From: Armatimonadota bacterium
GTDB taxonomy: Bacteria > Armatimonadota > Fimbriimonadia > Fimbriimonadales > Fimbriimonadaceae
Assembly: GCA_020161505.1 (NCBI GenBank)
Contig: JAIUNY010000004.1
Location: 1-64,000 of the forward strand
Direction of reading: 5' to 3'
Length of the DNA stretch: 64,000 nucleotides
Under the pieces are notes generated by a model. It had not been told where the DNA came from. It was given only the letters and a program-made list of their open reading frames with translations, and searched no databases. Positions 2,563 through 11,657 of the stretch are shown here, piece by piece. The position numbers were made by a program, and so were the translations under genes. Numbering within the stretch: the stretch's first letter is position 1; each line of letters opens with the position of its first letter.

Positions 2563-3354
2563 TTAGCGGTCTTTGAAGTAGCTCAAAAGGGCCTTAGCGT
2601 CTGCCCTTGCCTCAGCGCGGTACTCGGGGGTATTCCTTACATGCCCAGGAGGAAGACGACTAATGTATTCTGAGCGTAGCGCGATGCTCTTCTCGGTCAA
2701 CGATTTGCTGAGTGGCATTTCTAAGATGGCAACCCACTTGTAACTCTCTGCAAGGAAGATAAGTCGAGAGCCTTGTCGGAATTTCAGCTTCTCCTGTTTC
2801 TCTAGTAGCTTCAGCAAGGTCGTCCGATTCACCCCCACCTCAGGGTTCATCGCAGCCCAGAGGATGTAGTGTTGTTCCAGCTCGGTATCTGCTTGATTCT
2901 TGGCATAGAGCTTTTCGATGAGTTTGTTTCCTGCAAATGTGTCGTGTCCGGAAGTGCGATAGATGCAAATTGCAAGAGTGCGCGTAAAGTGAAACGAGTC
3001 CACAGGTTTCGTCCATGATCTCATTGCATTTCTGAATTTTCGAAGCTGAGGCCCCATTCCGCTAATTCGCCCTACGTTGCCGTCGCTGAGCAGTATCTCG
3101 TACCAAGCAAGGGCACGCATAAAAAGTATGCTATCTATTGGATCGTTTAGGAATGCGTTTGAGTGAAAAATGAACTTATCTGCACAAGCCCTCTCGTCGA
3201 TGAAGCCGTCCTTTCCGTAGAAAGGACGGACGTCGTCGAGGATTTGGGAGTAGGCTTTGTCCTGTCTGCTCCATTCGCCTCTCGCCCACTGTGGGAGAAG
3301 GTCGGGGTGGTGAGAGCCCGAACTGAGGACAAGTGCTAGACTAATCAGGGGCAT
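2563..3354 (-). CDS. Paralogue 3 of a tandem family of exported proteins of unknown function
   Basis: 263 residues; last gene of a four-gene minus-strand operon. A short hydrophobic N-terminus (MPLISLALVLSSGS) looks like a signal peptide. It is followed by the block PQWARGEWSRQDKAYSQILD and VRPFYGKDGFIDE, which is almost identical in the two upstream genes. The rest is all-helical, recalling TPR-like solenoids, but has no recognised domain; it keeps the family landmarks RTLAICIYRTS, LIEKLYAK and a C-terminal LPPGHVRNTPEYRAEA. It is the most divergent of the three copies. The gap to the upstream paralogue is 5 bp, implying co-transcription and perhaps translational coupling. Function unknown; co-expression with the large secreted protein suggests a cell-surface or periplasmic role. 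Confidence 0.75.
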   Translation of the reverse strand: MPLISLALVLSSGSHHPDLLPQWARGEWSRQDKAYSQILDDVRPFYGKDGFIDERACADKFIFHSNAFLNDPIDSILFMRALAWYEILLSDGNVGRISGMGPQLRKFRNAMRSWTKPVDSFHFTRTLAICIYRTSGHDTFAGNKLIEKLYAKNQADTELEQHYILWAAMNPEVGVNRTTLLKLLEKQEKLKFRQGSRLIFLAESYKWVAILEMPLSKSLTEKSIALRSEYISRLPPGHVRNTPEYRAEARADAKALLSYFKDR

Positions 3355-3359
3355 GTTGT

Positions 3360-4163
3360 TTAGTCTTTCCAGTGGGCGGTCTGCTTTCGTTTCTCTCTGA
3401 TGGAATCAAACACTTTCGCCCTGTAGTCGGCAGTGTTGTTGTTGATGTGTCCCGGAGGAAGCGCTGCGAGATAGTCTAGCTTGAGTTGGAATCCTTTCTC
3501 CATCAGACGCCTGCTTGGTGGTGCGTGGAAGCTAGCGAAGTTGTAGCACATACTCAATGTGAAGAGTCGAGTACCTTTACGGAACTCAATTTTCTCCTGC
3601 TTCTGAAGAAGTCGCTCAATCGGGAGTCGACTGGGAGATACTTCCTGATTCATACAGAGCCATACGATGTAGATGAGTTCAAGCTCCGTGTCCGACGGGT
3701 CTTTGGCGTACAGCTTCTCTAAAAGTCGGTTTTCGACAAACATGTCTGGCGACGTGGTGAGGTACGTGCAAATTGCCATGGTTCTTACGAAAGAGAAAGA
3801 ATCTACAGGCCTGCTCCATAGTCTCATGGACTGAATGAACTTTCGCTGAATGAGGGCGCGGCTTTCCGTGCGTGCGAAGTTGTAGTCAGAATAGGTTAGC
3901 TCGTGCCAAGCCAAGGCTCGCATGAGCTTAAGACTGTTGCCCTTATCTTGCAAGTATTGATTGACGTGGTACTCGTACTTCTTCTCCACGACATCCTCGT
4001 CGATGAAGCCGTCCTTTCCGTAGAAAGGGCGCACTTCGTCGAGGATCTGAGAATAGGCTTTGTCTTGCCTGCTCCATTCGCCTCGCGCCCACTGCTGTAG
4101 AGGAGCCCGTACCGGGCTCCTCGCGACTTGACCGAGCAGGAGTATTGCTGAAATTACTCCCAT
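3360..4163 (-). CDS. Paralogue 2 of a tandem family of exported proteins of unknown function
   Basis: 267 residues with a signal-like start (MGVISAILLLGQVARS), then the family block QQWARGEWSRQDKAYSQILD and VRPFYGKDGFIDED. The helical body (LKLMRALAWHELTYSD, VDSFSFVRTMAICTYLTTSP, LEKLYAKDPSDTELELIYIV) is very close to paralogue 1 and less close to paralogue 3. The C-terminus keeps LAALPPGHINNNTADYRAKV. It lies 6 bp after paralogue 1 and 5 bp before paralogue 3, consistent with tandem duplication inside an operon. No catalytic motif is visible and no function is assigned. Confidence 0.75.
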   Translation of the reverse strand: MGVISAILLLGQVARSPVRAPLQQWARGEWSRQDKAYSQILDEVRPFYGKDGFIDEDVVEKKYEYHVNQYLQDKGNSLKLMRALAWHELTYSDYNFARTESRALIQRKFIQSMRLWSRPVDSFSFVRTMAICTYLTTSPDMFVENRLLEKLYAKDPSDTELELIYIVWLCMNQEVSPSRLPIERLLQKQEKIEFRKGTRLFTLSMCYNFASFHAPPSRRLMEKGFQLKLDYLAALPPGHINNNTADYRAKVFDSIREKRKQTAHWKD

Positions 4164-4169
4164 AGGTGA

Positions 4170-4961
4170 TCAGTACTTCCAATGTGCAACTTGCTTTCTC
4201 TCCTCTCGCATGGACTCGAACACCTTCGCCCGATACTCTGCAGTGTTGTTCACGTGGCCTGGCGGAAGAGCCGACAGATAGTTCAATTTGAGCTGGAAAC
4301 CTTTCTCAAGTAGCCTGCGACTCGGCGTTTCATGCGAACTCATGAAACTGTAACACATGCTCAACGTGAATAACCTGGCACCTTTGCGAAACTCAAGCTT
4401 CTCCTGCTTCTGCAGAAGTTTCTCGATGGTGAGGCGGCTTGGCGATATGCTCGGGTTCATGCTGAGCCAAACGATATAGATCAGCTCGAGCTCCGTGTCT
4501 GACTGATCTTTGGCGTAGAGCTTCTCGAGAAGGCGATTCTCGGAAAACATATCCGGCGATGTCGTGAGGTACGTGCATATTGCCATTGTTCGCACAAAAG
4601 AAAAGGAATCAACTGGCCTGCTCCACAGTCGCATAGCCTGCAGAAATTTCTTCCTGCTCCGATCAGTTGCGGCGTCATCGAAGATATCGGAGTCCGAACA
4701 TGCAAGTTCGTGCCAGGCAAGTGCTCGCATGAGTTTCAGGCTGCTGCCTCGATCCTGGACAAATGCTTGTGCATGGAAGCGATACTTTTGTGCTACTAAA
4801 TCCTTATTGATGAAGCCGTCTTTTCCGTAGAATGGACGGACTTCGTCGAGGATCTGAGAGTAGGCTTTGTCTTGTCGACTCCATTCGCCTCTTGCCCATT
4901 GTTGGATCAGATTCGATTGCTGAGAGAGGAGAACTGCGCCCAGCGCAAGTGCTGAAGTCAT
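4170..4961 (-). CDS. Paralogue 1 of a tandem family of exported proteins of unknown function
   Basis: 263 residues from ATG 4961 (MTSALALGAVLLSQQSNLIQ), chosen because an AGGA motif precedes it at normal spacing and the stop of the upstream gene lies just 4 bp before; a longer in-frame start at 5063 would sit inside the upstream gene. After the signal-like segment comes the shared block QQWARGEWSRQDKAYSQILD and VRPFYGKDGFIN, then a helical body nearly matching paralogue 2 (VDSFSFVRTMAICTYLTTSP, LLQKQEKLEFRKGARLFTLS) and the C-terminal LSALPPGHVNNTAEYRAKVF. Unknown function; likely exported together with the first gene of the operon. Confidence 0.75.
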   Translation of the reverse strand: MTSALALGAVLLSQQSNLIQQWARGEWSRQDKAYSQILDEVRPFYGKDGFINKDLVAQKYRFHAQAFVQDRGSSLKLMRALAWHELACSDSDIFDDAATDRSRKKFLQAMRLWSRPVDSFSFVRTMAICTYLTTSPDMFSENRLLEKLYAKDQSDTELELIYIVWLSMNPSISPSRLTIEKLLQKQEKLEFRKGARLFTLSMCYSFMSSHETPSRRLLEKGFQLKLNYLSALPPGHVNNTAEYRAKVFESMREERKQVAHWKY

Positions 4962-4965
4962 TTCC

Positions 4966-6854
4966 TTACTCTCTCCACCAAGTCGACGGGATTTGGTGTT
5001 CTTTTGTGCCGAGCCAGTACAGTGTCCGCCAAACACCTTGTTGCGGATTGGGATCATATTCATATATCAAATCCATTCCCTGGAAACCCTGCACACCAAA
5101 CTTCTGCGCGAGATGGACTTTAACATCCGAAGCTTCCATCAGCTGGGCTTGCCATTTGAATAGGTCTCCGTATTCACGCGCACTTGCACCAGCGGGCATT
5201 CCTGCTACGTGCGTCCACCAGTTTGTCGGGAACACTTTATACTGCAACGCCCTAGTATGGTCGATTTGAATCTCCTCTGTCACTTCGTTGACAACTGTCG
5301 AAGTGATGCCGGCTATGGCGGCCAACGCGGCTGTCATAGGATTCCCGCCTGCTGCGGCAAGATCCATTACGCCAGCGGCCAGTTCGACAAATGGGCCGAC
5401 AAACGTGAGGTTTCCGGTAAAGGTTGTTCCTGGTTCCATCTTTGGAGTCATGTCTACCCATCCACGAAGGTCGTGAATGCATACACCGGAGAACAGATCA
5501 GGGTGCACGATCTCTAGCTTCTTTCGGAGTTCTGTCGTCGCGAGAGCTCTACCTGAAACGCCGTCGTTCCACTTAAACGAGAAGTTCTGAGTCAAAGTCT
5601 CAGTTTCAGCGCAGTGCTCCGTAATGGATTCCTCTACATACAGCAAATAGCTCATAACGTGGTGCTGCATATAGTCGACCTGCCTCACTTGTGCTCCAGA
5701 GTTCGAGATAGTGGTCTGGGCAGGAAGACTTCCCGATGGCCCTGGTGAATAGGAGTAGGTGTTTGGACTTTGTGTTGTGCCGGAAAGTGGACTCGCCGAA
5801 CCTTGGTGCCAGATGCTGAACGGGAACGGCACGTTCGGATCGTGGTGGAAAGTCTCTTCGGTAATCATGTTGGTCCCGATTCGCTTTTTCGCAAGGGGTC
5901 GCCCAATCCGATAGAAGATGTTGAAAGAGTCAATCCCCGTATTGCTTGGCTGGAATGGCACTGGTACGTAGCTTGCCGCGCTTCTCGTTTCGGTTGCTGA
6001 GCAGTCCTTGAAAGTGATGACGAAGTTCTGCGTACCATTAGGCGTAGCGTCCATGATTGGATCGAAGGAATTCCGAAGCGCAAGGCTCTTATTCGATGGC
6101 TTGATCTCGGCTGCGATCTCCGCATAGACAGACGCTTGCATACCCTCGGACTCCGCCTCCGCTTTGGCCGTCGGAGTTTCGTACATTGCCGCTGTTCCGG
6201 ACGCGTTGATGAACTTGAGTTCGCCAGAGTGGCTGGTGTAAGCATTGTTCAGGCCCCCAATATAGTCGAAGACTTGCCGGTGCTGCCCGCCCAGTCCATT
6301 GTCGGTGGTAGCACTGCCAAAGGTACCGAAGGCCGTGTTGTAGTACGCGTTGGCGGTTTGAAAACACTCGATCGGGACGTTCTTACTTGGAGTGCCGAGG
6401 CCTTGGTATGCCAAGTAGATCACGTACTTACCCTCCGCCGTCCACTTGGCGGACATGTTCGCTCCTGCAGGAATCGAATACTGCATCCCTGTCGGCACAT
6501 TGTTGACCTTCCACTGGCCTCCGAGTCCGTCATTTTGATTTCGGGTTCTGGTTTCCGTAGTCACAACTCCGTTGTAGTTGTTCACGAGCACCACGGTGTC
6601 TGTGATGTGCTTTTCAATCGACGTGATCACCCAGCCTTGGCCGACGGCGACTTGACCACCGCCTCCTCCGCCACCTGGATCGCCACCGCCCATGCCTTGC
6701 GCGAGAGCGGGTTGGACCGAGAGGGCGAGAGCCGCCATCACGAGGATCAGAACACTAGATCGACCGCGCCGCTTTTGTGCGGGGGGGGGGTAGGAGTAGC
6801 CATGGTGGCTTGAGTGCTGGAACTTGTTGCGAGTTTTTCTGGGGAGGATTTCAT
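4966..6854 (-). CDS. Large secreted protein of unknown function; frame interrupted at a C10 tract before the signal peptide
   Basis: First gene of the four-gene operon. The frame from GTG 6741 to the TAA at 4966 gives 591 residues, but it begins in the middle of a signal peptide. Reading further upstream gives a full one: basic AQKRRGRSS, then VLILVMAALALSVQPALAQG. The best start is ATG 6854 (MKSSPEKLATSSSTQ), 5 bp after a GAGGAG site, but it joins that frame only if the C tract at 6781-6790 has 11 (or 8) residues instead of 10. As given, translation from 6854 stops early at a TGA near 6752. The mature protein starts with a Gly-rich linker and has a beta-rich, Asn/Thr-rich body with few cysteines; no domain recognised. 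Either a phase-variable gene in its OFF state or a homopolymer sequencing error. Confidence 0.7.
6781..6790. repeat. G10/C10 homopolymer at the signal-peptide junction
   Basis: Ten consecutive G on the + strand (C on the coding strand), flanked by C and T. The tract encodes a proline run in the N-terminal region and separates the SD-preceded start (6854) from the signal peptide frame; gain of one base restores a single open frame. Tracts of this length are known to slip during replication. Confidence 0.9.
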
Positions 6855-6876
6855 TTCATCTCCTCTTACATCACCA

Positions 6877-6905
6877 ATCTTACAGAGAAAGTCGATGACT
6901 GTAAA
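6877..6905 (-). promoter_or_regulatory. Predicted sigma70-type promoter of the 6854-2563 operon
   Basis: On the minus strand TTTACA (6905-6900) and TAAGAT (6882-6877) are separated by exactly 17 bp. Transcription would start about 6870, leaving a short leader with the GAGGAG site before ATG 6854. It lies directly downstream of the hairpin that ends the acyl-CoA synthetase unit, so this operon has its own promoter. Confidence 0.55.
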
Positions 6906-10449: not shown

Positions 10450-11657
10450 GTGTGCTGTGACATGACATCCTTGACACTCCGAGACAGGACATTGTTGACA
10501 CATGCCTTTCTCGGGTTGGTCGGTTATGGATTCGCGTCTTTTACTTGTTCATCGCGTTCTGGTCGAAGGCAGTAGTGTGGCGTTGGCTGCTCGTCTGGCA
10601 GGGGTGAGTCGCGAGACGGCGTACCGCTGGATTCGCAGAGCCAAAGAAGTTGGCATCGACGAATTGCGCGAGCACTCGCGGCGACCCCACACCAGCCCTC
10701 TTGAGACTCCGGAGGAGGTGGTGAGTGCATTGCTTGCTCTCAGGCAGCGTTACCCTCTGTTCGGCCCCTTAAAGCTTTGCGCCCTTCTCGATGTTCCGCT
10801 CAACCCCCGAACGGCGGCCCGTATCCTCAAACGACACGGATACTCGCAACCCAAGCAACTCATGCCCGAAGAAATCCTCCAGAGATTTGAGCGCAGCCAG
10901 AGCAACGAACTCTGGCAAATGGACTTTAAGGGCCTCAAAAGACGCGGGCAGGGCTACGAAATTCTGAGCATTTTAGATGATGCAACGCGTTGCTGCTTGG
11001 CCTTGAAAGCCCTTCCCGACCAGCGGCTTGTGAGCGTCTGGGAGACCCTCTGGTCTCTCTTTGGTGAAGTCGGCCTCCCTGATGAAATTCTTTCTGACAA
11101 CGGCCCAGCATTTGGAAGTGGAGGCGTTTGGAGGCTCTCCAAACTGGATGCTATGCTCCTGCGGCTCGGAATCCGGCCCACGCACGGGCGGCCTTACCAC
11201 CCTCAAACTCAAGGCAAAGTGGAGCGCTTTCATGGCACTCTGCAACAAGAAGTTGGCCCTGATCTGTATGCTCCTACTTTTGAGGAGGCAGAGCAAAGGT
11301 TGGAGCAGTTTCGGGCTTTTTACAACTGGCAGCGACCGCACCAGGCCCTTGACCAAAAGTTTCCGGGCAGCCTGTATCGCCCCTCCAAGAAACACCGACC
11401 ATCCACCCTCCCAGAGCCCAACTACCCGGCCGGATCTCAGATTCGCAGAACTGAACAAGATGGCTACTTTCAGTTCAAAGGCCAGGGCTACAGAGCAGGC
11501 AAAGGCCTGGCCAGACAAGCCATCGCCATCCGGGAATGCAGCACCACAGGAGTGCTTGAAGTCTACTTCTGCGATGTCAAACTCGCACCCCTTGACGACC
11601 TCAAAGTGTCACGGATGTCGTGTCCTGAAGTGTCACGAATGTATTGACACTTGACAC
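10450..11657 (+). mobile_element. Complete IS481-family insertion sequence
   Basis: 1208 bp. The ends are inverted repeats of about 50 bp with mismatches: left end GTGTGCTGTGACATGACATC, right end read inward GTGTCAAGTGTCAATACATT, with further matching TTGACAC/GTGACAC and GGACA motifs. The element is bounded by a direct 5-bp repeat CGGGA (10445-10449 and 11658-11662), a target duplication. Removing the element and one CGGGA restores the dispersed repeat continuously. The single gene it carries is an intact DDE transposase, so the element could still move. Confidence 0.88.
10502..11647 (+). CDS. IS481-family DDE transposase
   Basis: 381 residues. N-terminal helix-turn-helix (LAARLAGVSRETAYRWIRRA) binds the terminal repeats; the rve/RNase H-like core follows. 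Catalytic residues: Asp141 in WQMDFKG, Asp199 in LSDNGPAFG, Glu241 in QGKVERFHGTL. The Asp-Glu spacing of 41 is a little longer than the usual 35 because of a small insertion after DNGPAF. YNWQRPHQAL near the C-terminus is typical of IS481/IS3 integrase cores. ATG 10502 overlaps the left terminal repeat; ATG 10526 is an alternative start. No frameshift or stop is seen. Confidence 0.93.
   Translation: MPFSGWSVMDSRLLLVHRVLVEGSSVALAARLAGVSRETAYRWIRRAKEVGIDELREHSRRPHTSPLETPEEVVSALLALRQRYPLFGPLKLCALLDVPLNPRTAARILKRHGYSQPKQLMPEEILQRFERSQSNELWQMDFKGLKRRGQGYEILSILDDATRCCLALKALPDQRLVSVWETLWSLFGEVGLPDEILSDNGPAFGSGGVWRLSKLDAMLLRLGIRPTHGRPYHPQTQGKVERFHGTLQQEVGPDLYAPTFEEAEQRLEQFRAFYNWQRPHQALDQKFPGSLYRPSKKHRPSTLPEPNYPAGSQIRRTEQDGYFQFKGQGYRAGKGLARQAIAIRECSTTGVLEVYFCDVKLAPLDDLKVSRMSCPEVSRMY

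Follow-up and report, generated by a model that had tools for sequence, protein, structure and literature searches.

The window, a stretch of 64,000 nucleotides at the beginning of a contig from an Armatimonadota bacterium (Fimbriimonadaceae), carries on its minus strand a gene start and a secreted-protein reading frame which are separated by a run of ten C residues (C10, 6781-6790). Upstream of the tract are found a -35-like TTTACA (6900-6905), a -10-like TAAGAT (6877-6882) located 17 bp from the -35, a Shine-Dalgarno-like GAGGAG (6860-6865) and an ATG at 6854. As assembled, this start reads through the tract and ends after 35 codons at a TGA (6749-6747), leading to a leader ORF (6747-6854) which encodes MKSSPEKLATSSSTQATMATPTPPPHKSGAVDLVF. 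In contrast, the frame which follows the tract reads PPPAQKRRGRSSVLILVMAALALSVQPALA^QG and stays open to position 4966. It contains a signal peptide (6696-6780, AQKRRGRSSVLILVMAALALSVQPALA^QG), supported by translation and by a scan for signal-peptide cores, and an uninterrupted ORF of 590 codons from ATG 6738. No other start is present in this frame before the tract, and the only ones after it, GTG 6741 and ATG 6738, have no RBS and leave the signal peptide without its basic KRRGR n-region. These features had been described from the sequence alone, and the description proved correct.

The exported protein (4966-6741, 590/591 residues) contains a Gly-rich linker, and neither it nor its relatives matched any Pfam family. 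An AlphaFold prediction, based on four sequences, gave only one usable domain (residues about 35-214, predicted to be beta-rich, mean pLDDT 39.6). A Foldseek search returned no match at E <= 0.001 and VIA-align gave at best a Z of 5.5 to Bdellovibrio Bd1399, which is within the noise stated by the tool, so no fold or function is claimed. Directly behind this gene (region 2563-5063, minus strand) lie three tandem paralogous ORFs of the WARGEWSRQDKAYSQILDEVRPFYGKDGF family, without Pfam match, at 4170-4961, 3360-4163 and 2563-3354. ATG 4961 directly follows the stop of the tract gene, and these genes probably form one operon. A paralogue of the exported protein (42% identity) is encoded on another contig of the genome, C2, with an ordinary signal peptide and no tract. 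It is followed by a single homologue of the tandem ORFs, so a two-gene unit is duplicated. Elsewhere in the window, an integrase/transposase-like ORF (10502-11647, plus strand) appears by eye to be of the DDE type. The best named matches of the neighbouring AMP-ligase are Fimbriimonadaceae MAGs, from which the genome is inferred to belong to the order Fimbriimonadales.

Long poly-C/G tracts in the genome and its order

In order to assess whether such a tract could arise by chance, runs of C or G were counted. In the window, there are 330, 83, 16 and 3 runs for lengths 4, 5, 6 and 7, none of 8 or 9, and then this single C10. In the whole 3.14 Mb genome, pattern searches returned 8 runs of exactly 8, 1 of 9 and 8 of 10 or more (10, 10, 10, 10, 11, 12, 12 and 15), i.e., a clear second mode. 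By extrapolation, about 0.2 runs of 10 or more would be expected, and the Poisson probability of 6 or more is about 7e-8. A10 runs are few, with 2 in this genome and about 14 listed, against over 130 C10 runs, in the same 18 genomes.

Two of the eight long runs are located at contig ends. The six interior ones all lie, by inspection, at the 5′ end of a secreted-type ORF. Three break the frame around the signal peptide: 1) the window gene, on contig C22, 2) contig C6, with MAVMEQSGKRAGIAGLALGATFALVHFLSTPVHAQS followed by G12 just after the signal-peptide cleavage site, where the frame changes, and 3) contig C29, where ATG AAA GGA CAA CT and C12 are followed, in another frame, by VFQALQRRPLITAGLAIASLLLL (316 aa). 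Two others sit in promoter spacers, with TTGACT-N8-G11-TAGCTT-9nt-ATG on contig C37 and TTGACT-N9-G10-TAGCGT-7nt-ATG on contig C19, both having 19-bp spacers. The last one, a second site on C19, is a C10 located 44 nt upstream of MKDALLSAVLALGATTLS. From the gene counts, we roughly estimate at 6% the chance for a random site to fall so near a secreted gene start, so six of six is not accidental, allowing for the fact that these sites were inspected by eye. Contig C19 also begins (bases 1-60) with a C10 followed by TATACT-7nt-ATG and a secreted-type ORF, which is probably a seventh switch at which the assembly broke.

The promoter-spacer architecture was further searched for in 113 genomes of the order. 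The pattern TTGAC-N(3-13)-G10 occurs at about 22 distinct loci in 15 genomes, against about 4 for the reversed pattern, distinct loci being counted by hand from overlapping matches. In 17 of them, an ATG follows the tract at +12 to +19 and opens an ORF with a secreted-type N terminus, usually as TANNNT-6/7nt-ATG, which is the form of a leaderless promoter. Spacer lengths run from 15 to 24, as expected if the tract slips. The poly-C version of this pattern is not enriched (about 10 loci against about 9 in the reversed control) and was rejected as a general class, although the cases found in two relatives, G018 and G019, look good. In G019, three clustered genes on contig C16 encoding large secreted proteins have similar, paralogous promoters, TTGACATA followed by C10, C12 and C11, respectively, between matching flanks, and represent a good natural test case. 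In G018 and G045, two species of one genus, pilin-like genes (MYRSKGFTLTEVLVVIGIICVLASLGFF) both have a C12 about 160 bp upstream.

Over 92 tracts fetched with their flanks from 14 genomes, a signal-peptide core is found near 29%, against 9% of random positions, 14% of random intergenic positions (p about 2e-4) and 1 of 42 runs of 7-8. Similarly, a secreted-type ATG at +9 to +20 is found for 12% against 1.6% (p about 2e-7). However, not every long tract is of this kind. In several genera many are merely intergenic, only 15 of the 92 tracts lie inside called genes against 81% of random positions, and convergent intergenic sites are not depleted (14 of 66). A crude automatic scan for start-tract-signal-peptide genes was not enriched (10 of 93 against 7% of random positions) and, like crude codon scoring, was too blunt, so the reading-frame class rests on inspected cases. 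In addition, contig ends or N-gaps in G003 (end of contig C8), G017 and G007 carry G25-G44 and mixed G/C runs which look like sequencing artefacts and inflate the tract counts of these genomes. Loss of mismatch repair was considered as a cause, but MutS is present in all 15 genomes tested, including this one, which has no obvious mismatch-repair defect. In the relative G006, a MutS-family gene (a second MutS_V hit, contig C1, 2247645-2248186) seems split into two reading frames.

Comparison of tract length and frame in related genomes had been put forward in advance as a way to probe the proposed switch. Searches of viral and genome contig collections returned no close relative of the window protein, so the tract could not be compared between strains. 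Among the homologues, neither the C2 paralogue nor a relative in G001 has a tract, while the relative in G006 has a frame-breaking G12 just behind its signal peptide. The same is seen in other secreted families, for example in four related proteins of G044 and G017 with tracts before, in or at the end of the signal peptide. Tracts thus appear to arise repeatedly and independently at the 5′ ends of the same kinds of gene, which points to selection on the switch rather than on a peptide.

A candidate slipped-strand switch

Collectively, these data support, with fair confidence, that the C10 tract is a simple-sequence contingency (phase-variation) locus seen in its OFF state. In this view, the tract gains or loses C residues by slipped-strand mispairing during replication. 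The C10, like the other tracts of this genome (C10-C15), is long enough for slippage at a high rate, for which a G/C run of about 8-9 or more is required. Lengths congruent to 2 mod 3 would join the well-placed start to the signal peptide and the 590-residue exported protein, while other lengths, including the assembled C10, would end after about 35 codons. The result would be a population mixed for the presence of a secreted or surface protein and perhaps, by polarity, of the three co-directional genes behind it. The locus would be one of at least six in this genome and of a larger set of candidates in Fimbriimonadaceae, which also uses poly-G runs in the -35/-10 spacer of what look like leaderless promoters of small secreted proteins, and which should tune transcription. 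What the analysis itself establishes is the tract and the broken frame, the genome-wide excess of long runs, their placement at the 5′ ends of secreted-type genes, the recurrent promoter architecture and the different tract lengths in paralogous promoters. Slippage in living populations, an effect on expression and the benefit of the switch, probably escape from predators or phages, or varied adhesion, are inferred. As for length variation between otherwise similar sequences, the C10, C11 and C12 of the G019 promoters are the observation at hand and, without reads or a second strain for the window locus, leave this question undecided. The C10 length itself is likewise unverified, and may be an assembly error for an in-frame length. 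Mixed tract lengths in a clonal population, also named by the sequence-only reading, stay unproven, and reversible, heritable switching of expression in such a population was not measured. The interpretation offered by that reading, a slipped-strand contingency locus with assembly error as the main alternative, is supported by the arrangement of the other tracts, in both classical designs.

Other explanations are less likely. An assembly or base-calling error, the true tract being of a fixed, in-frame length and the gene an ordinary constitutive secreted protein, is possible for this particular length, since homopolymers of 10 are error-prone in any technology, two contigs of this assembly end at poly-C/G and some relatives show clearly artefactual G/C runs at contig ends. 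Nevertheless, a single error at this site explains neither why a long C tract sits there, nor why long tracts are over-represented and fall at the 5′ ends and promoter spacers of secreted genes in many genomes, and the tract-free paralogue shows that the protein does not need the tract. About equally unlikely is a neutral microsatellite, in which a lineage-wide slippage bias lets C/G runs grow wherever indels are tolerated (intergenic DNA or dispensable, fast-evolving secreted genes) and has made here a recent pseudogene. The scarcity of tracts inside genes, the lack of avoidance of convergent gaps and the poor conservation of the tract-linked proteins are consistent with this view, and part of the excess looks like neutral slippage where frameshifts cost nothing. 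Such a tendency probably exists in the lineage and supplies the raw material. However, the oriented TTGAC-G10-ATG architecture and the enrichment of secreted genes over random intergenic positions are not expected from neutrality. Further stops or frameshifts, looked for as signs of a decayed pseudogene, were absent: the 590 codons contain no in-frame stop, against 18-20 in the other forward frames, and the paralogue pair has a pN of 0.39, lower than its pS of 0.84.

Recoding, by which RNA-polymerase or ribosome slippage on the C run would make a constant fraction of full-length protein from every tract length, is very unlikely. Homopolymers of this length can promote slippage, and a slippery run at the junction is compatible with it. 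Transcriptional slippage, however, usually occurs on A/T runs (PMC3711429), and this reading would not explain the promoter-spacer tracts or the lengths of 10-17 found elsewhere. A conserved shift site with a fixed frame offset was not found in the homologues examined, as the C2 paralogue has no tract and the G006 homologue has its tract on the other side of the signal peptide.

Relation to known phase-variable systems

Homopolymer phase variation is known mainly from host-adapted pathogens and is usually explained by immune escape. The remark that it would be unusual in this kind of organism also holds, as no paper pairing Armatimonadota or Armatimonadetes with phase variation was found in the literature searched, which is incomplete. 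The mechanism is thus known, while the lineage appears new. It is somewhat more likely than not that Fimbriimonadaceae carry a lineage-wide set of poly-C/G phase-variable genes for secreted proteins with two designs, reading-frame tracts at the signal peptide and poly-G tracts in the -35/-10 spacer of leaderless promoters, which would be the first phase-variation system known in the phylum, in free-living bacteria without a vertebrate host. A set of such loci across a family of free-living, poorly cultured bacteria would mean that other pressures (phage, predators, attachment) also select for this type of switch, and it gives a ready list of secreted proteins facing those pressures.

The closest known systems are poly-G/poly-C contingency loci with the tract in the reading frame, such as Neisseria meningitidis lgtG, hmbR and hpuAB. 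In these loci also, a G/C homopolymer is located inside a gene, indels of one residue join or split the start and the body, and the products are mostly exported or surface-associated. Here, the host is a free-living Armatimonadota, the tract lies between the start and the signal peptide of a protein without a known family, and switching has not been demonstrated. While the window tract is of this reading-frame type, the other loci of this genome and order, with poly-G of 10-17 between TTGAC and a TANNNT -10, are reminiscent of the promoter-spacer phase variation of N. meningitidis porA, which has 11G between -35 and -10, with 9G and 10G variants (PMC3639595). They differ from it in that the ATG follows the -10 by about 6-9 nt, which suggests leaderless mRNAs, and in that the targets are mostly small secreted proteins of unknown family. 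Finally, 5′ poly(A)/poly(T) tracts have been surveyed as gene-inactivation sites (Orsi et al. 2010, PMC2831843), and these are likewise homopolymers near the 5′ end of genes allowing reversible inactivation. That survey reports short A/T tracts in general coding genes, while here C/G runs of 10 or more are found at secreted-type genes.
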